Of a DNA stretch of 64,000 nucleotides, positions 37,096 to 49,681 are shown piece by piece. Below the pieces are notes generated by a model, which saw only the letters and a program-made list of their open reading frames with translations, ran no database searches and had not been told where the DNA came from. Where the stretch lies: assembly GCA_017936885.1 (NCBI GenBank), contig JAGBEO010000003.1, positions 166,259 to 230,258 of the forward strand. The letters are read 5' to 3'. Origin of the DNA: Lachnospiraceae bacterium. GTDB lineage: Bacteria > Bacillota > Clostridia > Lachnospirales > Lachnospiraceae. Position 1 is the stretch's first letter. Each line of letters starts with the position of its first letter. The position numbers were made by a program, and so were the translations under genes.

Positions 37096-38466
37096 TTGAA
37101 TCAAAACGGAGATAACAATTACTATAACAATGATTATAGTCAACCAAGAGGTCAGGGAATGCAGAATCCATATTATCAGCAGCCTGCACCGGTACCGCCG
37201 GGACATCCTCAGCCCGGAATGCCTTCGGACGGGCAGAATAAAGGCGGCATACTTATGCTGGGAATGCTGTTAGGAGTGATCCTGACAACGCTTGTTGGCG
37301 GATGTACATTCGTGGGAATGAAAATAGTGGATCTGTCTAAAAGTAATTCTGCGAAGCAAGCCAGTGCCGGTGCGGACGGTGCCGACAGTGTAATTAATGA
37401 AGACAGCATAGAGAAATTGGAAGCGATCGAGGATGTGATCGACCAATATTATTATAAAGACGAAGATATTGACACGGATGCGATGATTGAGGGTATGTAT
37501 GCAGGAGTCGTGGATTCTTTGGGAGATCCCTATTCCGTTTACTACACGGCAGAAGAATGGCAGTCACTGATGGAGGAGACAGAAGGCATCTATTACGGAA
37601 TCGGTGCCTATCTAAGCCTTGATCCGGCTACCGGACTGGCTAAAATCAGCGGTGTGATTGCAGATACGCCTGCCGAGGAGGCCGGTCTGAGAGAGAATGA
37701 CATCATCTATCAGGTAGACGGTGAGAGCGTGCAGGGATTGGAATTATCCGAGATCGTATCTAGAGTAAAGGGTGAAGAGGGTACATCAGTACATCTGACC
37801 ATTGTAAGAGAGGGTGAGACGGACTATCTGGAAATTGACGTGACCAGACGTCAGATTGAATCGCCTACAGTTAATTATGAGATGTATGATAACGGCATCG
37901 GCTATATTCAGATCACGGAGTTTGATGATGTGACGACAGACCAGTTTACGGAAGCGCTGGCAGTCATCAAAGGCTCTGATGCCAAAGGACTGATTCTGGA
38001 TCTGCGCGGTAATCCTGGCGGCAGTCTGCCGGTAGTAGTCGATATTGCCAGAATGATCCTTCCCGAAGGAAGAATTGTATATACGGAAAATAAATACGGC
38101 GAACAGGAGGAATACACCTGTGACGGAAAGCATGAGCTTGAGATGCCGCTTGTGGTATTGGTAAACGGTAATTCCGCCAGTGCTTCTGAAATTCTTGCCG
38201 GTGCCATTAAGGATTACGGGAAGGGTACTTTGATCGGAACCACTACGTTCGGTAAGGGTATTGTGCAGAGAGTGTTGCCTTTGACAGACGGTACGGCACT
38301 AAAGCTTACGATCAGCGATTATTATACGCCGAATGGCAACAACATTCACGGCATCGGTATTGAGCCGGATATCGAGTGTGAGCTCGATGCGGAAGCGTAT
38401 TATGAGGATGGCGCAGATAACCAGTTGGAGCGTGCGATTGAAGAGATGGAGAAGATGATCAAGTAG
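37096..38466 (+). CDS. S41 family C-terminal processing peptidase (CtpA-like)
   Basis: A 456-residue membrane-anchored protease. A cytoplasmic Asn/Gln/Pro-rich tail (1-48) precedes one TM helix (about 50-75). A PDZ domain (about 155-240, 'GVIADTPAEEAGLRENDIIYQVDGE') follows, then the S41 domain with 'GYIQITEFDDVTTDQF', 'LILDLRGNPGG', the nucleophile Ser in VNGNSASASEILAGA and the Lys base in FGKGIVQ. It starts with TTG 37096 after AGGAGATGAATCG. In Firmicutes, ctp genes often follow ftsEX-M23, suggesting it trims or degrades the hydrolase. That link is inferred. Confidence 0.92.
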   Translation: MNQNGDNNYYNNDYSQPRGQGMQNPYYQQPAPVPPGHPQPGMPSDGQNKGGILMLGMLLGVILTTLVGGCTFVGMKIVDLSKSNSAKQASAGADGADSVINEDSIEKLEAIEDVIDQYYYKDEDIDTDAMIEGMYAGVVDSLGDPYSVYYTAEEWQSLMEETEGIYYGIGAYLSLDPATGLAKISGVIADTPAEEAGLRENDIIYQVDGESVQGLELSEIVSRVKGEEGTSVHLTIVREGETDYLEIDVTRRQIESPTVNYEMYDNGIGYIQITEFDDVTTDQFTEALAVIKGSDAKGLILDLRGNPGGSLPVVVDIARMILPEGRIVYTENKYGEQEEYTCDGKHELEMPLVVLVNGNSASASEILAGAIKDYGKGTLIGTTTFGKGIVQRVLPLTDGTALKLTISDYYTPNGNNIHGIGIEPDIECELDAEAYYEDGADNQLERAIEEMEKMIK

Positions 38467-38820: not shown

Positions 38821-39738
38821 ATGCTACTCAATGAACGATTAAATTTAAGACTGAATGGTGCGGAACAATATATTAATATTCGTTCCAGAAGGGATAATGC
38901 CCCTTTACTTGTATATCTGCACGGAGGACCGGGAGATGCAGCGCTTCCTTTGATGCTGAAATATAATAGCGAACTGGAAAAAGATTTTACGTTAGTGGTA
39001 TGGGAGCAGCGAGGAGCGGGCAAGTCTTATTATAAATTTTCACAAGAAGAATATATCACTATTGACACCTTCGTGGAAGATCTGCACCAACTGATTCTGA
39101 TCCTGCTAGAACGGTTTGGACAGAAGAAAGTGTATTTGGTCGGTCATTCCTGGGGGAGTGTTCTTGGCTTGCATTACATACAGAAGTACCCTAAAAATGT
39201 ACATACCTATATTGGATGCGGTCAGGTAATAAATATGATAAAATCCTGCCGGATTGCCTATGAATATGCCATGGAACATGCAGATCAGAGAACAAAGCAC
39301 AGGCTAATGCAGATTGATCCTTTATACACAGGAGACAACTGGATTCGGGAGTTGTTATTTGTGACGAAGCAAGTGGTTAAGTATAAAGGCTCTTTGTATG
39401 ATAAGCAGAATTATAATTCATTGGTTTTGCCATTCCTGTTTTCCAAAGAGTACAGTTTTGCTGATCTCATTAATCGACAAAGAGGCGCTATGCAGTCAAT
39501 TGCTTTTTTGTGGCAGGAGCTTATGACAGTGAATTTTGAAACCGTAACAAGTTATGAAGTACCAATAATATTTGTAGAGGGGCGACATGATTACCATGTA
39601 TCGTCAACTGTGGTAAATAGCTATTTTCAGAAGATTGAATCAGAAAAACGGTTCGTCTGGTTTGAGCATTCCTGTCATTTTCCGCAATGGAGCGAGAGTG
39701 AGAAATTTAATGAGCTGATGGTTGAGTTAATTGCGTGA
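38821..39738 (+). CDS. Alpha/beta hydrolase (proline-iminopeptidase-like)
   Basis: A 305-residue cytosolic alpha/beta hydrolase. The oxyanion motif LVYLHGGPGD, 'LVVWEQRGAGKSYY', the nucleophile elbow VGHSWGSVLG, a late Asp (EGRHDYHVS) and a His (FEHSCHFPQWSE) make a complete triad. HGGPG is typical of S33 prolyl iminopeptidases and related lactonases. The substrate is unknown. It has slightly more AT and less regular codon use than the ftsEX region. Confidence 0.85.
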   Translation: MLLNERLNLRLNGAEQYINIRSRRDNAPLLVYLHGGPGDAALPLMLKYNSELEKDFTLVVWEQRGAGKSYYKFSQEEYITIDTFVEDLHQLILILLERFGQKKVYLVGHSWGSVLGLHYIQKYPKNVHTYIGCGQVINMIKSCRIAYEYAMEHADQRTKHRLMQIDPLYTGDNWIRELLFVTKQVVKYKGSLYDKQNYNSLVLPFLFSKEYSFADLINRQRGAMQSIAFLWQELMTVNFETVTSYEVPIIFVEGRHDYHVSSTVVNSYFQKIESEKRFVWFEHSCHFPQWSESEKFNELMVELIA

Positions 39739-39875
39739 AAGATGTTTTGATATTTTATGTAACAAATTAGTGTCACAAAAACAGTTATGTTTTGTCTAAT
39801 TATATAGGAAAGGGATAAATGAACTGTCGGATGACGAATTTATCCAAGATTGCGATACATAGAATGGAGGAAAAT

Positions 39876-40508
39876 ATGGAGAACAAGACAAACGAAGAAC
39901 TGTTTATTTTGATTGATCAGGCTACCGCAGGGGATAAACAATCTCTTGAAAAGGTTATTCTCAGCGTACAGGATTTAGTATTCAATCTATCTTTGAGAAT
40001 GCTGGGAACCTTTACGGATGCGGAAGATGCGACACAAGATATTTTATTGAAAATTATTACGCATTTGTCCTCTTTTAAGAAAGAGAGTTCCTTTTCAACA
40101 TGGGTGTTTCGTATTGCCGTGAATCATTTAAAGAACTATCAAAAGCATATGTTTGCCCATTGCTCTTTGAGTTTTGAATATTACGGAGACGATATAGAAA
40201 ATGGGGAAATTCAGAATGTGCCGGATCTGACGCAGAATGTGGAGAGATCCATTTTGGCAGAAGAATTGAAGATGTCCTGCACCAATGTTATGCTGCAGTG
40301 TCTTGATGCAGAGAGTAGATGTATTCTGATATTGGGAACCATGTTTAAGGTAGATAGTCGTATAGCAGGCGAAATTTTAGGTATGAGTTCCGAAGCATAC
40401 AGACAGAGGTTTTCTTTTTTTAAAGCCTATGCATCGCCTGAGAAGATAATCCAGTTTGTCAAAGCGTTTTTGGATTCAAATTCTCTATCCATTGTGAAAA
40501 ATTCATAG
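39876..40508 (+). CDS. ECF-like RNA polymerase sigma factor
   Basis: A protein of about 210 residues. Sigma region 2 is clear ('DLVFNLSLRMLGTFTDAEDATQDILLKI', 'FKKESSFSTWVFRIAVNHLKN'). Region 4 is weaker ('DAESRCILILGTMFKVDSRIAGEILGMSSEAYRQR') but keeps an HTH-like 'SRIAGEILGMS'. ATG 39876 follows GGAGG with a 5-nt spacer, while in-frame ATGs from 39819 are less likely. No anti-sigma factor gene is adjacent. The next gene is DUF2461, 15 bp on, so the pair may be an operon. Confidence 0.8.
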   Translation: MENKTNEELFILIDQATAGDKQSLEKVILSVQDLVFNLSLRMLGTFTDAEDATQDILLKIITHLSSFKKESSFSTWVFRIAVNHLKNYQKHMFAHCSLSFEYYGDDIENGEIQNVPDLTQNVERSILAEELKMSCTNVMLQCLDAESRCILILGTMFKVDSRIAGEILGMSSEAYRQRFSFFKAYASPEKIIQFVKAFLDSNSLSIVKNS

Positions 40509-40523
40509 CAGGAGGATTCAAAT

Positions 40524-41207
40524 ATGGATATGCAGATGATATTACAATACTTATCTGACTTAGAAAAAAACAATGACCGTGAGTGGTATCATCGTCACAA
40601 AGCACAATACAAGGAAGCCAATGCGGAATTTGAAGCACTTTTGCAGGAATTGATTTTAGAAATCGGGAAAATGGACAGTAGTGTCCTGCATAATGTTCCC
40701 GGAGATATTACCTTTAAGCTTGTGAGAGATACCCGTTTCAGTCATGATAAATCACCTTATAATCCGGCTTTTCGTGCACATATTTCATCTATGGGAAAAC
40801 TGCCGATTCCGGTAGGATACTACATTATGGTCAAACCCGGTAATCAATCGTTTCTGGGTGGCGGGCTTTTCACTGATATGTTTAAGGATGCCACAGCAAT
40901 GGTACGCGATTATATTGCCGCAAATCCGGATGAATGGAATGAGATTATTTGTGCCGCAGATTTTCAGAAATATTTTACGGTACATGGAACTGCTTTGAAG
41001 AATGTTCCTAAGGGGTATGATAAGGAGCATTCGCAGGCTGAGTTTTTGAAATTTAAAAGCTGGTATCTGGAATATCCTGTGAAGGATGAGGAGTTGTTGG
41101 ATGCTGAGGCGTTTATATTACGAGCGACAGAAATTTTTGAGGTTATGAAGCCTTTTAATGATTATCTGAACAGGGCACTTGGAGGATTTAGGATGCCTTC
41201 AAGATGA
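40524..41207 (+). CDS. DUF2461 family protein
   Basis: A 227-residue protein matching the DUF2461 family ('LQYLSDLEKNNDREWYHRHKAQY', 'FKLVRDTRFSHDKSPYNPAFRAHIS', 'YYIMVKPGNQSFLGGGLF', 'YDKEHSQAEFLKFKSWYLEY'). The family is common in bacteria and some fungi, and its function is unknown. It follows the sigma factor gene by 15 bp with an AGGAGG ribosome site, suggesting co-expression. A hairpin with flanking A and T tracts follows. Confidence 0.88.
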   Translation: MDMQMILQYLSDLEKNNDREWYHRHKAQYKEANAEFEALLQELILEIGKMDSSVLHNVPGDITFKLVRDTRFSHDKSPYNPAFRAHISSMGKLPIPVGYYIMVKPGNQSFLGGGLFTDMFKDATAMVRDYIAANPDEWNEIICAADFQKYFTVHGTALKNVPKGYDKEHSQAEFLKFKSWYLEYPVKDEELLDAEAFILRATEIFEVMKPFNDYLNRALGGFRMPSR

Positions 41208-41233
41208 AGCGTGATTTTCGAGTATAGGGAAGA

Positions 41234-41290
41234 AAAATAAAAGTACAGAGGAATAGAACAAAAGTTCGATTTTCTCTGTACTTTTATTTT
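41234..41290. terminator. Long inverted repeat / bidirectional terminator between DUF2461 and the uvrB fragment
   Basis: AAAATAAAAGTACAGAG (41234-41250) pairs perfectly with CTCTGTACTTTTATTTT (41274-41290). The stem is A/T-tract flanked on both sides. The loop holds a LexA-type box, so it may combine termination with regulation. Confidence 0.75.
41256..41267. promoter_or_regulatory. LexA (SOS) box upstream of the uvrB fragment
   Basis: GAAC-AAAA-GTTC followed by G fits the Gram-positive LexA/DinR consensus CGAAC-N4-GTTCG except for the first C. uvrB is a classical SOS gene in B. subtilis. The box lies 125 nt ahead of the broken uvrB copy, and only a degenerate version (TGACAAAAGTTCG, 44586-44598) lies ahead of the intact gene. 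Confidence 0.65.
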
Positions 41291-41305
41291 CTTCTCTGCT
41301 ATAAT
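41277..41305 (+). promoter_or_regulatory. Promoter of the uvrB fragment
   Basis: TATAAT (41300-41305) lies 17 nt after a weak -35, TGTACT (41277-41282), close behind the LexA box. Confidence 0.5.
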
Positions 41306-41391
41306 ACAGTTTGATAGCGGCATACTAGGTATAGAAGAATTGTGAATGCTCATTTGGACTTGGCAGAATTGATTCTTATAAAGGAGATTTC

Positions 41392-41667
41392 ATGGATTAT
41401 TTTGTACTTCATTTAGAATATCAGCCCACCGGCGATCAGTCCTAGGCAATTGCCGAGTTAGTGGAGAGATTTCAAAAGGGTAATCAGTTTCAGACTTTAC
41501 TTGGTGTAACTGGCTCCAGCAAGACGTTTACTGTGGCGAATATCATACAGGCGCTGATTAAGCAAACCCTTGTCATTGCACATAATAAGACACTGGCAGG
41601 ACAGCTATACGGCGAGTTCAAAGAGTTCTTTCCGGAAAATGCAGTGGAGTATTTTGTGCCCTACTAA
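41392..41667 (+). pseudogene. uvrB: Broken duplicate of the uvrB 5' end
   Basis: ATG 41392, with AAGGAG 7 nt ahead, opens a frame colinear with the first about 91 residues of UvrB ('LEYQPTGDQ', '[10 protein letters not shown]', '[20 protein letters not shown]'). It has an in-frame TAG at 41443-41445, a Walker A change (GSSKT instead of GSGKT) and a stop right after FVPY, where intact UvrB continues SYYDYY. Nucleotide identity to 44730-44970 is high but clearly not complete, so the copies have diverged. It cannot make a functional protein. Confidence 0.9.
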
Positions 41668-41965
41668 GCGTCGGGGTTTTCAGGCCCGTTATTTAGTGTT
41701 ATTTGGTGTTATTTATCCCATATTTTGTGGACTATATGGACTGAATGGATTGGGTAAATCTACCTGGACAGAATGAGTTTAGTGACTTTTATTCGTAAAA
41801 GTGATCATAAAAGAGAAAGCCGCTCATGATGTTGCCATTGAAAAAACTGATAAGAGATATGAAGTGTATAGAGTAAAACAGGATAGGAAATAAATTTCTG
41901 GATTTGATAGGGAAGCAGAAAAGGATTTTAAAGGTTAAAGATAGAAAAGCAAGGAGAAACAAAAT
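41668..41965 (+). other. Gap between the uvrB fragment and the cassette genes
   Basis: No intact gene. It holds one copy of a 29-bp repeat (41772-41800). After it there is a short decayed coding trace: the frame around 41836-41892 reads 'KTDKRYEVYRVKQDRK', reminiscent of proteins found on clostridial conjugative elements, though too short to name. GGAGAAAC at about 41951-41958 serves as ribosome site for the next gene. Confidence 0.4.
41772..41800 (+). repeat. 29-bp direct repeat, left copy, flanking the nuclease cassette
   Basis: AATGAGTTTAGTGAC, four variable bases, then ATTCGTAAAA. The right copy is at 44557-44585, and 26 of 29 positions agree. Confidence 0.75.
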
Positions 41966-43285
41966 ATGATTTCAACAGATCGTGCAGGTCAATATACTGA
42001 AAATCCCGATTTAAATAGTGAAATCTTGGTATGGATAAATAAACGTATACTATCTTTAGTTAGAATGTATAAAGAATTGGGAGATGATACAGGATGGGAT
42101 TATGAATATTTAAGGATTTGCTTCCCGAGAACATTTATAGAAGATAATGGTACAGAAAAATGTTTGCAAGTTGTAAATGATATATGTGACATTTTGCGAT
42201 CTGATTATATAAGAAAAGATCTGAAATTAATATATAAATATGTTTTAATTAGAATTGTTGAAGATTTCCAGATGTTATATGAAGATGCTAAGAAGAGTGG
42301 AGAAGAAGATCTTTGTAATATTTATTTTCCGCCAATGGATGAAAAATTGGTAAAAAAGATTTATAAAGAGTTTGGTTATGAGTTTGAAAAAAGAGGAGAG
42401 ATTAAATCTAGTGATGATGAAAATCACCCGCAGTTACTGATAGAATATGGTTTAGAAGATATTGATGGCTTGTTTTGGGATGATGTTTTTGATTATACGG
42501 AAATTGAATCTATAGATCCATTTATTGAAGAGTGTATTGATAAAATTGAACAAGGTGAATTAGTGTTATGGGATTTGGAATATTATGTCGATTTAATGTC
42601 GAGATCAACCAAAGAACGATATTATCAAGTAAAGCCATTTTTGAATAAAATATACGAAGAAATGGAAAACAATAGAGTAAATCAGATTGTTGATACTTAT
42701 ATTCGTACGAATACAAGAAAACACTTGAATAAAGAAGAACTCCTAAAGGATGTATGTTCAGTATGTAAAGTTTTGCAGGGAAGTATGAAGATTCTTAAGA
42801 AAGGGGAAAATAATTATAATACATATATACGAGATTTATTGAGAAACAAAGGCTATGATGTTTTAGATCAAACGCTTAGAGGAGAGTCAGAGAGTAAAGA
42901 GCACATAGGGGAGATAGATTTTGAAATTATGAAGACAGCAGAGATTCCTTTTGCAATTTTTGAAGCTTTAATTATGTATGGCTTTTTTGATAGTCAAAAG
43001 AAATATTTCATAAAGCATTTGAAAAAGTTGTTAGATAACTATAATCCAATGGGTGTTCCGATAACTTTTTTGGTAAGTTATGTGAAATGCCAAAAAGAGA
43101 AATTTGATGAGTGCTATATGAATTATAAAGAACTTCTTCAAGAACATAAAGTTGCAGATTTTGTCCCTTATCATATATGCGAGCATGAACAAACAGAAAA
43201 TTATTTGTATTGTTTGGAGTGTGCCTATATATGTGGAAAAAATGCAATTACAGTATATAATATTTTTGTACATATAAATGAATAA
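41966..43285 (+). CDS. Uncharacterised protein with a C-terminal nuclease-like (PD-(D/E)XK-type) motif
   Basis: A 439-residue AT-rich gene with no named family recognised. Residues 1-280 are predicted helical and acidic, without obvious motifs. Residues about 283-400 read 'NYNTYIRDLLRNKGYDVLDQT', then GEID (315-318), then PFAIFEAL (Glu333), then 'KHLKKLLDNYNPMGVPITFLVSYVK'. An N..R.LL...GY.V.DQT segment followed by GE(I/L)D and an E-A-L strand is the pattern of restriction-endonuclease-fold domains found at the C terminus of several bacterial conflict proteins, with E316/D318 and E333 as candidate acidic residues. Codon use (AAA, ATA, TTA-rich) differs from the flanking uvr genes. It precedes a YhcG-type nuclease by 139 bp inside a repeat-flanked cassette. 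Antiviral or anti-plasmid function is inferred, not shown. Confidence 0.6.
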   Translation: MISTDRAGQYTENPDLNSEILVWINKRILSLVRMYKELGDDTGWDYEYLRICFPRTFIEDNGTEKCLQVVNDICDILRSDYIRKDLKLIYKYVLIRIVEDFQMLYEDAKKSGEEDLCNIYFPPMDEKLVKKIYKEFGYEFEKRGEIKSSDDENHPQLLIEYGLEDIDGLFWDDVFDYTEIESIDPFIEECIDKIEQGELVLWDLEYYVDLMSRSTKERYYQVKPFLNKIYEEMENNRVNQIVDTYIRTNTRKHLNKEELLKDVCSVCKVLQGSMKILKKGENNYNTYIRDLLRNKGYDVLDQTLRGESESKEHIGEIDFEIMKTAEIPFAIFEALIMYGFFDSQKKYFIKHLKKLLDNYNPMGVPITFLVSYVKCQKEKFDECYMNYKELLQEHKVADFVPYHICEHEQTENYLYCLECAYICGKNAITVYNIFVHINE

Positions 43286-43423
43286 AGAAATCTATTTTGG
43301 GGATACACCATATATTATTCTGATTGCTTTAACTGAAATGCCTAAAGGACATGGCGGATGTGACATGATTTTCAATTATTGCAGTTTCGGTTTTGATTGC
43401 AAATGATTTGGAGGAAAGGTTAT

Positions 43424-44446
43424 ATGCTGATAAATAATGATGAGTATATGAAAGTACTCGACAACATTCTTAACTGTATAAAGACATCACAATATAAAGT
43501 CATGCTTAATGCGAACTTGGCATTAATGCATCGAAATTGGATTATAGGTAATTATATTCAAGAAAATAGTAATTGGGGACAGGGGTTTCTGAAAAATTTG
43601 TCAAGAGATATAAAAGCAAATTTTCCTGATGTATCTGGATTTTCAGAGAGAAATTTGCGTGACATGAAAAAATTCGCCTCTATTTTTGAGGAAGATGATA
43701 TTGATGCATATGGATTAGCAGGTATTACATGGTATCACCATAAAGCATTAATGGGCAGGGTAAAGTCTAAAGATGCATATATTTGGTATGTAGAAAAGAC
43801 TATTCAAAATGGGTGGTCACATGACATGTTAGAATTTCAAATCGATAGTAATTTGTATATGCGACAAGTGGAAAAGCCCAAAATACAAAATTTTGAAGGT
43901 AGGTTACCGGATCAACAAAGTGAACTGGCAATTCAGACTATGAAAGATCCATACATTTTTGATTTCGTTCAATTCCGAGAGGGAATGATCGAGAGAGATA
44001 TCGAAACAGAACTGGTTAATAATGTAAAAAAATTTCTTATTGAATTAGGAACAGGATTTGCCTTTGTTGGTGAGCAATTTGAAGTAAATGTAAATGGTGA
44101 TGAGTTTTTTATAGATTTATTGTTTTATCATTACAGATTACATTGTTTTGTAGCAATTGATTTAAAAACCGGAAAATTCACACCGGACATGGCAGGAAAG
44201 ATGAATTTTTATTTGTCTGTTTTGGATGATATGGTTAAAAGTGATTTAGATAATCCATCAATTGGTTTGATATTATGTAGAAATGAAAATAAGCTAGTTG
44301 CGGAGTATTCACTTAAAGATATGAGTAAGCCAATTGGAGTGTCAGAATATAAATTAATCAATGATTTACCTAAAGAATTGCAGAACATACTACCTACTTC
44401 GGAAGACATTGAAACGAGAGTAATGAGAAAATACGATTGTGATTAA
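43424..44446 (+). CDS. YhcG/DUF1016 family PD-(D/E)XK nuclease
   Basis: A 340-residue protein. The N-terminal DUF1016_N helical domain has 'NLALMHRNWIIGNYIQE', 'LSRDIKANFPDVSGFSERNLRDMKKF' and 'ITWYHHKALMGRV'. The C-terminal nuclease domain has 'FVGEQFEVNVNGDEFFIDLLFYH' and 'CFVAIDLKTGKF', giving the D...(D)xK active-site arrangement. The family is widespread near restriction-modification and defence genes, and its biochemical role is not settled. ATG 43424 follows GGAGGAAAGG, while an in-frame ATG at 43397 precedes that site. The gene is AT-rich like its upstream neighbour. Confidence 0.88.
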   Translation: MLINNDEYMKVLDNILNCIKTSQYKVMLNANLALMHRNWIIGNYIQENSNWGQGFLKNLSRDIKANFPDVSGFSERNLRDMKKFASIFEEDDIDAYGLAGITWYHHKALMGRVKSKDAYIWYVEKTIQNGWSHDMLEFQIDSNLYMRQVEKPKIQNFEGRLPDQQSELAIQTMKDPYIFDFVQFREGMIERDIETELVNNVKKFLIELGTGFAFVGEQFEVNVNGDEFFIDLLFYHYRLHCFVAIDLKTGKFTPDMAGKMNFYLSVLDDMVKSDLDNPSIGLILCRNENKLVAEYSLKDMSKPIGVSEYKLINDLPKELQNILPTSEDIETRVMRKYDCD

Positions 44447-44447
44447 C

Positions 44448-44475
44448 TAATTCGGCACACACGTGTGCCGAATTA
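44448..44475. repeat. Near-perfect inverted repeat after the YhcG gene
   Basis: TAATTCGGCACAC (44448-44460) pairs with GTGTGCCGAATTA (44463-44475). There is no T tract. It could be a weak terminator or a binding site at the cassette edge. Confidence 0.6.
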
Positions 44476-44556
44476 AAATAGTGGTAATTACAAATCATGG
44501 AGTTGGTTTTATTTATGAATCTATTTAGCATTATATTATACTATTGGATAAAGGAA

Positions 44557-44585
44557 AATGAGTTTAGTGACCTGCATTCGTAAAA
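44557..44585 (+). repeat. 29-bp direct repeat, right copy, flanking the nuclease cassette
   Basis: AATGAGTTTAGTGAC, four variable bases, then ATTCGTAAAA, in the same orientation as 41772-41800. It lies about 114 nt before the uvrB start. Confidence 0.75.
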
Positions 44586-44698
44586 TGACAAAAGTTCGTC
44601 TATTAGCCAGCTATATGAACACTTCATTTCAAATATTTTACGAATTTCTGACCAATACACCAATTTTTAATGGGTCACTTGGAGGTGAAAAACACGCT

Positions 44699-46687
44699 AT
44701 GAAGTTTAAATTGCACGCAGAATATCAGCCCACAGGCGACCAGCCGCAGGCGATTGCCGAATTGGTAGAAGGCTTTAAAAAAGGCAATCAGTTTCAGACA
44801 TTGCTTGGTGTGACCGGCTCTGGCAAGACGTTTACTATGGCGAATATCATACAGGCACTGAACAAGCCGACTCTTGTCATTGCACATAATAAGACACTGG
44901 CAGGACAGCTCTATGGCGAGTTCAAAGAGTTCTTTCCAGAGAACGCGGTAGAATATTTTGTATCTTATTATGATTACTACCAGCCGGAGGCATACGTGCC
45001 ATCTACAGATACCTATATCGCGAAAGACTCCGCGATCAATGATGAGATCGATAAGCTGCGTTTGTCCGCGACAGCTTCTTTGACGGAGCGTAAAGATGTG
45101 GTAGTGGTTGCCAGTGTGTCCTGTATTTACGGTTTGGGAAGCCCGGAAGAATATGCGGGCATGAGTATGTCTCTAAGACCCGGTATGCAGCGGGATCGGG
45201 ATGATGTGATCAGGGGACTGATTGAGATGCAGTATAACCGCAATGATATGGACATGGAGCGCTGCTGTTTCCGTGTGCGGGGGGATGTGTTGGAAATCTA
45301 TCCGGCGCAGGGTGGAGACTATCTGATTCGTATTGAATTTTTCGGTGATGAGATTGACCGGATTGCAGAGACTGACCCGTTAACAGGGCAGGTGCACGCT
45401 ACATTAGAGCATGTGATGATCTATCCGGCTTCGCATTATGTAGTGCCGCAGGAAAAGATCAACGTTGCCTGCAAGGAAATCGAACGGGAATTAGAAGGCA
45501 GAGTGAAATATTTCAAAGGGGAGGACAAGCTGTTGGAAGCCCAGCGTATCTCGGAGCGGACTAATTTTGATATCGAGATGCTGCGGGAGACAGGATTTTG
45601 TTCGGGTATCGAGAATTATTCCCGTCATTTGAACGGTATGGCAGAGGGAGAACCGCCCTTTACATTGTTAGATTATTTCAAAGATGATTTCCTGATTATC
45701 ATAGATGAGTCCCATATGACAATACCGCAGATACGCGGTATGTTTGCAGGAGACAGATCCCGTAAGAATACGCTGGTGGATTATGGATTCCGTCTGCCGT
45801 CTGCACTGGACAACAGACCGCTCTGCTTTGAGGAATTTGAGCAGCATATCGACCAGATGCTCTTTGTGTCAGCCACGCCGTCTGAGTATGAAGCGACTCA
45901 TGAACTGTTCAGGACGGAGCAGATTATCAGACCGACAGGGTTATTAGATCCGGAAGTGGATGTGCGTCCTGTGGAGGGACAGATTGATGATCTGATTTCG
46001 GAAGTGAATAAAGAGGTGGCAGATCATAACAAGGTGCTTGTCACCACGTTGACGAAGCGAATGGCAGAAGACTTGACAGATTATATGAAAGAAGTAGGCA
46101 TCCGTGTGAAATATCTGCATTCGGATATCGACACACTGGAGCGGGCAGAGATTATCCGTGATATGCGGTTGGATGTGTTTGACGTATTGGTGGGTATCAA
46201 TCTGCTCAGAGAGGGACTGGATATTCCGGAGATTTCTCTGGTAGCAATCCTGGATGCTGATAAGGAGGGATTCTTACGTTCCGAGACATCCCTGATACAG
46301 ACGATCGGACGTGCGGCGCGTAATGCGAAGGGTCATGTGATTATGTATGCGGATAATATGACAGATTCCATGAAAAACGCGATTACCGAGACGAATCGTC
46401 GTAGGCAGATCCAGCAGAAGTATAATGAAGAGCATGGGATTACACCGCAGACGATACAGAAAGCGGTTCGTGATCTTATCAGTATTTCCAAGACGGTTTC
46501 CAAGGAAGAAATGAAGTTTGAGAAAGATCCTGAATCCATGAGCAAGCAGGAGCTGGAGAAGCTGATTAAGGATGTGGAAAAGCAGATGAAGAAAGCGGCA
46601 GCGGATTTGAACTTCGAGGCGGCAGCAGAATTGCGTGACCGTATGGTAGAGTTGAAAGGGAAACTGAGGGACTTTGACAGGGAATGA
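44699..46687 (+). CDS. uvrB: Excinuclease ABC subunit B (UvrB)
   Basis: The damage-verifying helicase of nucleotide excision repair. Walker A is [10 protein letters not shown]. The beta-hairpin region is '[22 protein letters not shown]', Walker B is IIDESHMT, 'LFVSATPS' follows, motif VI is '[12 protein letters not shown]', and the C-terminal UVR domain is present ('[30 protein letters not shown]'). ATG 44699 follows GGAGGTGA and gives 662 residues, the normal length. The frame stays open upstream to ATG 44558, and those 47 residues match no UvrB and derive from the cassette edge. The 5' end is duplicated at 41392-41667. The 3' end overlaps a structured hairpin repeat. Confidence 0.95.
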
Positions 46688-46816: not shown

Positions 46817-49681
46817 ATGTCAGATACAATTAAGATGCGACCAAGAGAATATATTAAGATTCGTGGTGCGAATGAGCATAACCTGAAAGGAATTGATGTG
46901 GATATTCCGCGGAATGAGTTTGTTGTGCTTACCGGGTTATCGGGTTCCGGTAAGTCTTCTTTGGCTTTTGATACGATCTATGCGGAGGGGCAGAGACGTT
47001 ATATGGAGTCCTTGTCCTCTTATGCACGTATGTTCTTAGGTCAGATGGAGAAACCAAATGTGGAGAAGATAGAGGGTCTTTCTCCGGCTATTTCCATTGA
47101 TCAGAAATCTACGAACCGTAACCCCCGTTCCACGGTTGGAACCGTGACGGAGATTTATGACTATTTCCGTTTGCTGTATGCCCGCATCGGCATTCCACAT
47201 TGTCCCAATTGCGGTAAAGAGATTCGCAGGCAGACAGTAGATGAGATTGTAGATCAGATTCTGGCACTTCCGCAGGGGACGAAGATTCAACTGCTTGCTC
47301 CGGTTGTACGGGGCAGGAAAGGTGAGCATGTCAAAGTGTTTGAGCGCGCTAAGAGAAGCGGTTATGTCAGAGTGCGTGTAGACGGTAGTCTTTATGATTT
47401 GTCCGAAGAGATTAATTTAGAGAAGAATATTAAACATAATATTGAGATTATAGTGGATCGTCTGGTAGTGAAGGAAGGTATCGAGAGACGTCTGACAGAT
47501 TCCATTGAGAATGTCTTTGCCCTCGCCGAAGGACTTATGATACTTGATATAATCGGCGGGGAACCCATTAATTTCAGCCAGAGCTTTGCATGTCCGGATT
47601 GCGGTATCAGCGTCAGTGAGATTGAGCCGAGAAGTTTTTCCTTTAATAATCCTTTCGGTGCCTGTCCGCAGTGCTTTGGTTTGGGATATAAGATGGAATT
47701 TGATGTGGATTTGATGATACCGGATAAAAGCCTGAGTTTAAAGGAAGGAGCAATCTCAGTATTGGGATGGCAGTCCAGCGGTACAAAGGGAAGTTTTACC
47801 AATGCAGTATTGCAGGCATTAGCGGACGAGTTCCGGTTCAGTATGGATACACCTTTTGAGGAATTGTCACCGGAGGTACAGGATATCATTATTAACGGTA
47901 CCGATAAGAAAGTTGATGTATATTATGAGGGTCAGCGAGGCAAGGGAGTATATCCGATTGCTTTTGAGGGATTGATTAAGAATGTAGAGCGTAAATATCG
48001 TGAGACAGGATCTGATACCACGAAGCAGGAATTTGAAACTTATATGAGAATTACGCCCTGTAAAGAATGTAAAGGGATGCGTTTGAAGAAGGAAGCTTTG
48101 GCGGTAACAGTCTGTGATAAGAACATTTATGAAATTACATCCCTGTCTATTGCAAAGCTTCATGCATTTGTGGGAAACATGAAGCTGACCCCGCAGCAGG
48201 AACTGATCGGGAAACAGATTTTGAAGGAAATTCGTGCCCGAGTGGGTTTCCTAATGGAAGTGGGATTGGAATATTTAAGTCTGTCCAGAGCCACAGGTAC
48301 GCTTTCCGGAGGAGAGGCACAGCGTATCCGTCTGGCGACGCAGATCGGATCAGGTCTGGTAGGTGTCTGCTATATTCTGGATGAGCCCAGTATCGGTTTG
48401 CATCAGAGAGATAATGATAAACTGATTGCAGCGTTAAAGAATTTGAAAGACATGGGAAATACCCTGATTGTAGTAGAACACGATGAGGACACGATGCTGG
48501 CGGCAGACCATATTGTGGATATCGGGCCGGGAGCAGGCTCTCATGGCGGTGAAGTGGTGGCGCAGGGAACTGCAGAAGAAATCATGCAGATAGAAGAGTC
48601 CGTAACAGGTCAGTATCTAAGCGGTAAATTGCAGATCCCGGTTCCGGCAGGCAGAAGAAAACCGACCGGATATCTGACGGTTAAAGGCGCAGAGGAGAAT
48701 AATTTAAAGAAAATAGATGTGAAGATTCCTACGGGAGTCATGACCTGTGTGACAGGTGTGTCAGGTTCAGGCAAGAGTTCTCTTGTGAATGAGATTCTTT
48801 ATAAGAGGCTGGCAAGAGATTTGAACAGAGCACGCACCATTCCCGGCAAGCATAAGAGTATTCTGGGAATGGAACAGTTGGATAAGGTTATCGACATTGA
48901 CCAGTCGCCGATCGGAAGAACACCACGTTCTAATCCAGCGACTTATACGGGTGTATTTGACCAAATCAGGGATTTGTTCGCATCAACCCAGGATGCGAAA
49001 GCGCGCGGATACAGCAAGGGAAGATTTAGTTTCAATGTAAAGGGCGGACGCTGTGAAGCCTGCAGCGGTGACGGCATTATTAAAATAGAGATGCACTTTT
49101 TGCCGGACGTGTATGTACCTTGTGAGGTCTGCGGCGGCAAGCGGTATAATCGAGAAACACTGGAAGTAAAGTATAAAGGAAAGAGCATCTATGATGTACT
49201 GGATATGACGGTAGAGGAGGCAGTGCCTTTCTTCGAGAATCTGCCTTCTATTCGCAGAAAGATCGAGACACTTTATGATGTAGGGCTTTCCTATGTGAAG
49301 TTAGGACAACCCTCTACTACTCTTTCCGGTGGCGAGGCACAGCGTATTAAGCTGGCGACAGAGCTTAGTAAGCGCAGTACAGGTAAGACAATCTATATTC
49401 TGGACGAGCCGACTACAGGTCTTCATTTCGCGGATGTGCACAAGCTGGTGGATATATTGCATAAGCTGGCTGAGGGCGGCAATACGGTGGTAGTGATCGA
49501 GCATAATCTGGACGTGATTAAAACTGCTGATTATATCATTGACATGGGACCGGAAGGCGGTGAAGGCGGCGGTACGGTGGTAGCGGAAGGCACGCCGGAG
49601 CAGATTGCCGAGAATCCGAATTCCTATACGGGCATCTATGTGAAGAAGATGTTGGAGAGGGCTAAGAAACAGCAGAATTAG
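46817..49681 (+). CDS. uvrA: Excinuclease ABC subunit A (UvrA)
   Basis: The damage-recognition ATPase of excision repair, 954 residues, normal length. It has two ABC modules: first Walker [17 protein letters not shown] with signature [16 protein letters not shown] and [14 protein letters not shown], and second [16 protein letters not shown] with [16 protein letters not shown] and [14 protein letters not shown]. Zinc modules are CPNCGKEI (paired with the later CPDCG and CPQC) and [19 protein letters not shown] with [13 protein letters not shown] 46817 follows GGAGAAC. It forms the usual uvrB-uvrA pair with 129 bp between the genes. Confidence 0.97.

Follow-up and report, generated by a model that had tools for sequence, protein, structure and literature searches.

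A probable integrase-less integrative element within uvrB of a Lachnospiraceae bacterium, and its integrase-bearing relatives

We analyzed a 64,000-nucleotide stretch of contig JAGBEO010000003.1 from a Lachnospiraceae bacterium (hereafter, the window), in which a broken copy of the uvrB 5' end lies upstream of an intact uvrB gene and two other genes lie between them. Judging from the sequence, this locus is very probably an integrative element that lacks an integrase and occupies a site within uvrB, at about codons 88-91 (VS-YYDYY). The parts of the locus are as follows.

37096..38466, + strand: S41 peptidase gene, which we take to be ctpA-like from its sequence type; upstream host neighbor of the uvrB locus
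41230..41306, + strand: native uvrB promoter module of the broken copy (positions 18-101 of the right-end model described below, E 8e-8)
41256-41267: GAACAAAAGTTC box, a pattern match within the native promoter module before the fragment; presumably a LexA-type box
41392..41667, + strand: putative displaced resident uvrB 5' end, about 91 codons (the fragment)
41655..41668, + strand: predicted left junction (attL core), where the likeness to uvrB stops, at the same point as in relatives; the crossover base is approximate
41673..41817, + strand: predicted left end of the element, matched by a profile from 15 other elements (E 5.7e-24)
41772..41800, + strand: left copy of a 29-bp direct repeat, arm-site-like
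41966..43285, + strand: cargo gene 1, 439 aa
43397..44446, + strand: cargo gene 2, 349 aa, DUF1016_N and YhcG_C PDDEXK nuclease; PADLOC candidate PDC-S02
44555..44700, + strand: element-type right end before intact uvrB, matched by a profile from 39 integrase-to-uvrB intervals (E 1.8e-12)
44557..44585, + strand: right copy of the 29-bp direct repeat
44636-44645: inverted TTTTACGAAT, near the right copy of the repeat
44699-46687, + strand: intact uvrB (start corrected to 44699)
44699..44962, + strand: putative substitute, element-borne uvrB 5' end, about 88 codons including Walker A; switch position taken from loci L131, L133 and L136 and from the locus structure
44963..46687, + strand: host part of uvrB, with the predicted right junction at its start
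46817..49681, + strand: uvrA, downstream host neighbor

The fragment begins with ATG at 41392, has TAG at codon 18, carries GSSKT in place of GSGKT, and is closed by TAA (41665-41667) exactly where the likeness to uvrB stops. It is 84% identical to the intact gene over 252 aligned nucleotides, and the two copies are 3304 bp apart. A first-pass annotation of this DNA had described a diverged copy of about 91 uvrB codons, with an in-frame stop and a mutated Walker A, 3.3 kb upstream of uvrB, and our results bear this description out. It had also described a two-gene cassette flanked by the 29-bp repeat. The two genes are present as intact open reading frames (ORFs) of 439 and 349 aa, and the repeat is real, its copies being 90% identical, but it is internal and does not form the edge of a cassette.

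The left copy of the repeat is set about 105 bp in from the left junction, and the right copy stands about 114 bp ahead of the uvrB ATG. A 26-nt pattern of the repeat core occurs only at these two places in the window's own genome when up to 3 mismatches are allowed, and the control pattern gave 0 matches. A left/right repeat was found at a like place in six other elements (G034, G023, G251 and G217, with G212 and G456 tying with shuffled sequences; G and L numbers are our handles for genomes and loci). Its copies lie at about +104 to +117 relative to the junction and at -126 to -156 relative to codon 3, they are mostly of the GTGA..ATTCGT type, and some elements have inverted copies on the right side. 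We therefore rejected the repeat as a cassette boundary or target duplication, because it is sub-terminal and stands where other elements have their left/right repeat. It resembles a sub-terminal pair of integrase arm sites.

The two ends of the putative element were compared with profiles built without the window. The left-end profile, of about 160 bp, was made from 15 of 25 other left ends chosen by eye as alike, and it gave a single match in the 64 kb, at the place listed above. The right-end profile, made from relatives, matched just before intact uvrB; a different part of it matched before the fragment, and it also had a weak match on the left repeat (41774-41802, E 0.06). The right-end model consists of two modules, at positions about 30-103 and beyond about 140. 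The former is the ordinary uvrB promoter module, which precedes uvrB in three (G007, G021 and G098; not G069) of the four genomes where ctpA is 203-241 bp away. The latter, the element module, stands before 13 intact uvrB genes; nine are in genomes with a fragment or an integrase, and the other four (G009, G067, G078 and G085) are without other evidence of an element. It was not found before uvrB in any of the four empty genomes with ctpA adjacent.

In the window, the fragment has only the native promoter module and the intact copy has only the element module; the native module was not found before intact uvrB. This split appears to be what replacement of the resident start by an element start predicts, with the element's own promoter module missing. 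The first-pass annotation had proposed a comparison with relatives lacking the cassette, and in those of the genus there is a single uvrB close to ctpA (the gap is about 200 bp where the site is empty), with the native module in three of four. The window element seems to have separated uvrB from its presumed LexA-type box, and a change of regulation would be predicted. Since part of the right-end model matched upstream of the fragment, we considered that the fragment had itself been brought by an older element; this was rejected, because the same part also precedes uvrB in empty genomes. A 20-nt inverted repeat at 41234-41290 (95% complementary, 17-nt loop) surrounds the box.

In the relatives G034 and G023, a 433-aa protein (int433) with Arm-DNA-bind_4, SAM-like and Phage_integrase domains is encoded directly before intact uvrB. 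In G023 it is preceded by an overlapping gene for a second tyrosine recombinase of 398 aa (int398), and both have Phage_integrase domains. An alignment of three such proteins was used to scan a collection of genomes from 84,980 species, which gave 44 loci. Among the loci with at least 49% identity, a uvrB 5' end lies just downstream of the integrase in 40 of 41; at the 41st, L139, the contig ends 274 nt past the integrase. The distance between the integrase and uvrB is 223-407 bp (39 measured; L150 is cut by the contig end), and a full-length uvrB frame follows in 35 of these 39. As for the other four, uvrB ends at the junction in L124 and L143 as fragments do, which would reflect a further insertion, it is broken at residue 122 in L145, and it runs off the contig in L152. 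At least a remnant of int398 stands beside int433 in 39 of the 41 loci. No uvrB was found at 10 distant integrase loci (three at 25-27% identity and seven viral ones at 20-26%), though for three of them the available sequence stops no more than 250 bp from the match.

The named hosts of the integrase include Merdimonas faecis, Acetatifactor muris, Parablautia muri and Drancourtella massiliensis, and the Merdimonas lineage belongs to the Lachnospiraceae, Lachnospirales. A viral origin was considered and rejected: the scan of viral contigs gave only the seven relatives at 20-26% identity, none of them beside uvrB. The element of G023 is 104 kb long. Because it encodes a type IV secretion system coupling protein (PF02534) and a T2SSE-type ATPase (PF00437), at least this member of the family looks like an integrative and conjugative element (ICE); no relaxase was found among 10 scanned proteins of the element.

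We then compared the uvrB start with the integrase and with the rest of uvrB at the 31 loci having full uvrB. Distances in the first 258 nt of uvrB (from codon 3) followed those of the integrase closely (rho 0.826) and those of the uvrB rest less closely (0.358). The partial correlations were 0.818 for start and integrase and 0.301 for start and body, both above all 999 permutations. Between L133 and L136 the integrase and the first 258 nt of uvrB are identical, and the uvrB bodies that follow differ by 28.5%. L131, L133 and L136 show no differences across 700 bp upstream and the first 263 nt of uvrB, and differences begin at nt 264 or 276. L131, L133 (in G023) and L136 have identical integrase genes in hosts with 25-30% difference between the uvrB bodies, and over about 9.5 kb L131 and L136 can each be aligned to L133 at 95-96%. 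We interpret the three loci as carrying one element that appears to have moved recently.

The stranded fragment of G023 is 89-91% like the starts of G009, G099 and G100, which are three of the five nearest relatives of G023 by uvrB body, whereas its intact start is 78-79% like them. Of the remaining two, G031 points in the same direction (83% against 77%). G094 points in the opposite direction (80% against 90.5%), and its own uvrB is adjoined by an integrase 91% like the query. From these similarities to the starts of the nearest relatives, we conclude that the stranded copy in G023 was in residence until the last insertion and that the element brought the working start. The stranded starts of G023 and G034 are themselves preceded by an element-type right end and an integrase piece. 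These stranded starts would have been left by an earlier element, and therefore insertions probably repeat. On the origin of both starts, which the first-pass annotation had wished to see compared with the species tree, the result is divided: in relatives the element start follows the integrase and not the host gene, but the window's own similarity test against nearest relatives is not decisive. Its fragment and intact start are each other's nearest (85%).

To see how widespread the arrangement is, the genus was searched at the DNA level with the first 352 nt of uvrB, and the loci obtained were searched again at the protein level. An extra uvrB 5' fragment was found in 13 of 77 genus genomes (G000, G017, G023, G024, G032 with two, G034, G065, G068, G071, G076, G079, G093 and G094). 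The G076 fragment is cut by the contig end, and in G094 the fragment and intact gene are on different contigs. G001 was left out of the count, having a 38-nt DNA match without protein support; the second full uvrB of G065, on another contig, is not a fragment, but it forms one row in the 66-sequence comparisons given below. In 9 of the 13 carriers the fragment ends at codon 88-91, and the fragments of G017, G024 and G079 end at codon 79-81 and appear eroded.

In the family, 74 of 397 genomes were picked by eye for two or more matches and re-searched, and 32 of these 74 have a second copy that is cut short at residue 89-95. Counting the window's own genome, the family sample gives 33 of 397 genomes with such a fragment. 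A stop codon stands at the junction in many family fragments (VS-TAG or VSY-TAA). The elements read run from 1.3 kb to 104.7 kb from fragment to gene. The cargo between the duplicated 5' ends differs across many genomes, as a search suggested by the first-pass annotation was expected to find. Beyond the family, the VS-TAG junction pattern occurred in 6 of 295 order genomes, against 4 for the reversed control, and in none of 299 phylum genomes. Three of the four order matches fetched were true uvrB fragments, two of them in another family of the order; the fourth, G051, was rejected because the fetched locus holds no true uvrB fragment. The remaining two, G122 and G128, also have fragments. Based on these sequence comparisons, uvrB integration elements are well supported at the family level.

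These findings suggest the following mechanism. In relatives, the elements have two overlapping tyrosine-recombinase genes, then an arm-site-like region, and then a substitute for the first 88 or so uvrB codons. Insertion there leaves the resident 5' end stranded upstream, often with a stop codon at the junction, and joins the 5' end of the element in frame to the remaining host uvrB. We infer that, in an ancestor of the window organism, int398 and int433 recombined the element's attP with an attB in uvrB. Today the window element has no integrase, no transfer genes and no SOS promoter module; these were either lost or, if the element moved in trans, never present. What is left between attL and attR would be a two-gene cargo with a YhcG-type nuclease, that is, an element like a cis-mobilizable element (CIME). 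The element would include roughly the first 263 nt of the "intact" uvrB. Since its 5' end is fused to the host uvrB, the gene now in use would be a chimera of an element front and a host remainder. In an alignment with a solved UvrB chain (offset +2), the junction falls just before Tyr92-Tyr93-Asp94-Tyr95-Tyr96, presumably the start of the UvrB beta-hairpin, and the replaced part contains the Walker A motif.

The first-pass annotation had proposed an element that restores its target with a substitute end, and the window supports this by its matches to both end profiles and by the native module on the fragment and the element module on the intact copy. Its remark that no integrase is visible holds for the window cassette, and relatives carry the cognate integrase pair. 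It had further suggested a non-autonomous or recombination-driven cassette. The cassette is indeed integrase-less, but the fixed end point is better explained by site-specific integration than by a purely recombination-driven cassette.

Several observations weigh against our interpretation. The window cassette contains no integrase or recognizable remnant of one, and the window's own genome (93.6% complete) has only distant tyrosine recombinases (best E 9.4e-18); because of both, the window element cannot be shown to be mobile. A second type of left end exists (G065, G068, G071, G093, G094 and the inner G032 element) and was excluded from the profile. A left/right repeat better than all 60 shuffled sequences is confined to 5 of 24 elements, with ties in two others, and hence is no general feature. 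Two near relatives by uvrB body also fail to tie the window's fragment to the host: G073 is 73% like the fragment and 80% like the intact start, and G077 is 79% and 78% like them, respectively.

The comparison with uvrA across the genus speaks partly for and partly against our interpretation. Among 66 sequences, distances in the first 240 nt of uvrB were hardly correlated with uvrA distances (rho 0.30), against 0.50-0.76 for windows from about nt 250 on, which is in its favor. In 90-nt windows rho stayed at 0.15-0.35 as far as about nt 370, was 0.63-0.71 between nt 370 and 550, and 0.51-0.65 from there to nt 670. The signal change is centered near nt 340 and not at 265, which is against it; the stretch of nt 265-340 is very conserved, and hence little informative on this change. 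In 11 close pairs the single best breakpoints scatter over nt 139-967, and most are uninformative individually. That of G094/G009 is at 268 (range 234-395), and that of G088/G036 is firmly at 178 (166-186). Because the breakpoints scatter and the signal changes near nt 340, homologous recombination also appears to contribute to exchange in uvrB.

A variant of the integration mechanism is that the small cassettes are non-autonomous and were moved in trans between uvrB sites by the integrases of resident ICEs. To this variant we give real weight, though somewhat less than even. Of 21 elements shorter than 10 kb that were read, 15 have no integrase piece, as the variant would have it; the other six (G024, G032 inner, G128, G212, G322 and G409) keep one, as deletion predicts, in at least five cases where it would be expected, before uvrB. 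Cargo is also common to integrase-less cassettes in hosts with diverged uvrB bodies. G065 and G068/G071 share 1242 nt at 95.5% on bodies about 80% alike, and a stretch with a SIR2 gene is 88-92% alike among G071/G068, G093 and the inner G032 element, whose bodies are 78-82% alike. Since shared cargo lies on diverged uvrB bodies, these cassettes, or their sources, appear to have moved between hosts, and movement in trans must be taken seriously as an alternative. The shared cargo would, however, also be explained if the integrase had been lost after transfer, and the G065 assembly, with a second uvrB on another contig, may be mixed.

Cargo gene 1 of the window does not favor movement in trans. 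This 439-aa ORF has no family match in Pfam, NCBIfam or PADLOC, and distant relatives exist for its C-terminal half. It has four partial relatives in 396 other family genomes, none near full length, and one partial match is in G032. The YhcG-type nuclease of the window is a candidate defense gene. In other short elements the cargo includes RhuM, YhcG nucleases, an AAA_21/RloB pair, AAA ATPases, a nucleotidyltransferase/HEPN pair, PIN, Fic and SIR2, according to a sample of 20 proteins that was chosen by eye and leans to likely defense genes, 17 of which have a family.

Another explanation is that foreign DNA was exchanged over the start of uvrB by RecA-type homologous recombination, without a site-specific recombinase, and that the cargo and the second 5' end came with it. 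The lack of an integrase in the window and the scattered breakpoints of some pairs, as signs of homologous exchange in uvrB, agree with it. But it predicts neither the fixed end point at codon 88-91 nor the stop at the junction, nor left ends that are alike and unrelated to uvrB, as matched so strongly in the window, nor the linkage of 40 in 41 loci to one integrase family. We consider it very unlikely.

A simple tandem duplication of the uvrB 5' end, with decay of one copy and insertion of unrelated genes, is hardly credible. The first-pass annotation had named this as one case that would overturn its reading. One copy does have a stop and a changed Walker A, and the two copies in G409, taken together with about 380 bp upstream, show 96.7% likeness, which fits local duplication or gene conversion there. 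However, the 40 differences between the window copies over 80 codons are distributed 7/2/31 at codon positions 1/2/3 (P = 1.3e-8 against 1/3); with 31 of 40 at the third position, chance likeness and recent duplication are both rejected. The third-position excess was seen in all 19 pairs tested (18 fragment/intact pairs and the fragment/fragment pair of G146; weakest P 0.03). Because the differences sit mostly at third codon positions, the fragment and intact copies appear to have diverged as working genes in separate lineages before they met. Duplication also gives no account of why dozens of genomes share one end point, why an integrase is linked, or why the two copies have distinct upstream regions.

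An assembly or binning artefact has a negligible chance: many of the genomes are draft or metagenome assemblies, but the window contig is continuous through the locus, and the single-contig genomes G135, G290, G418 and G422 carry the same arrangement within one contig, so that it is no assembly fault.

The closest described case to the uvrB elements is the family of dusA-associated islands and prophages, in which elements with an integrase replace the 5' end of a conserved gene and strand the original, according to a study of these islands (PMC4482086). By that description, the two systems are alike in having imperfect direct repeats as att sites and a promoter before and after, and they differ in target, host group (Acinetobacter and Pseudomonas among the examples for dusA) and integrase arrangement. 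The replaced part of dusA is there described as a beta strand with no residue known to bind cofactor or tRNA, whereas the replaced part of uvrB is about 88 codons with Walker A, and whole elements carry an SOS-type promoter. The target in the window is uvrB and not dusA. As to the mode of the dusA islands, the fixed insertion point in the 5' coding part (codon 88-91) is found in the window and in relatives; a replacement 5' end from the element is found in relatives and is indicated in the window by structural evidence only; and a cognate integrase at the att site is found in relatives (40 of 41 loci) and not in the window.

CIMEs, according to a review, keep attL and attR after losing integration and transfer genes, and can accrete in tandem at an att site (PMC5704250). 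The window resembles them in keeping both element ends and in having no integrase or transfer genes; neither of its two cargo ORFs has a domain of either kind. Concerning their origin by deletion, relatives with like ends carry an integrase, and G023 also carries transfer genes, while the window has no remnant. It is not an ICE, having neither conjugation genes nor an integrase in the cassette. G032 resembles such accretion, with three uvrB starts in a row at the att site with the gene end; there (L037, L120) a tyrosine recombinase remnant precedes the second start, and two successive insertions at the same site would account for the arrangement. CIMEs have been described for other sites, and uvrB has 0 occurrences in the main text of the review (PMC5704250). 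The review also describes integrative and mobilizable elements in the 5' end of ebfC or tatD, which share 5'-end targeting with the uvrB elements, and "Tyr duo" elements, MTnPi1-3 (PMC5704250). The MTnPi and uvrB elements are alike in having two tandem tyrosine recombinases, distantly related in MTnPi; unlike the uvrB elements, MTnPi are there said to target short loose motifs and not a gene start. Two tandem recombinase genes are lacking in the window, and among relatives 39 of 41 loci have at least an int398 remnant.

No paper on uvrB as an integration site was among the matches listed in our literature search, subscription papers and preprints being outside its reach, and the uvrB passages of PMC10732058, PMC7466150, PMC4894674, PMC8795270 and PMC9728531 deal with other matters. 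Replacement of a 5' end on integration is already known, but what is exchanged in uvrB includes the ATP-binding motif of a core repair enzyme and, when the element is whole, its SOS-type promoter as well. On balance we think it somewhat more likely than not that, across the Lachnospiraceae, a dedicated family of two-recombinase elements lands at the codons for the base of the UvrB beta-hairpin, bringing along a spare SOS promoter and the P-loop-bearing first 88 codons, that the front and regulation of uvrB have been exchanged repeatedly between genera, and that integrase-less, defense-like cassettes move and pile up there. Whole-gene uvrB trees are unreliable in this group. The site is a possible hot spot of defense genes in common gut bacteria, and with the cognate integrase pair it offers a ready landing site for tools in hard-to-engineer Lachnospiraceae. 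A chimeric uvrB also permits a direct test of the fitness cost of chimeric repair proteins.

Some further observations were made at these loci. Between ctpA and the fragment in the window, at 38821-41207, lie abhydrolase, sigma-factor-like and DUF2461 genes; the other genus loci searched gave no close match to them at the same place, and these genes may be the cargo of an older, eroded insertion. In the single-contig genome G146 (C1:5448000-5456000, L189), two uvrB fragments occur with RhuM and YhcG genes, about 4 Mb from intact uvrB at 1456773, which suggests a large rearrangement through the uvrB site. At the site in G422 (L185, L186), an element of 23.5 kb contains several genes, or pieces of genes, for tyrosine recombinases, and a YhcG-type protein amid genes that look defense-like by eye. 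Finally, the UvrB frame seems to be 760-772 aa long in G239 (C7:28216-28866), G291 (C93:54976-55613) and G309 (C58:47248-47890), with about 90-100 extra residues near residue 37-40, just before Walker A; the extra stretch could be an intein-like or natural insertion.

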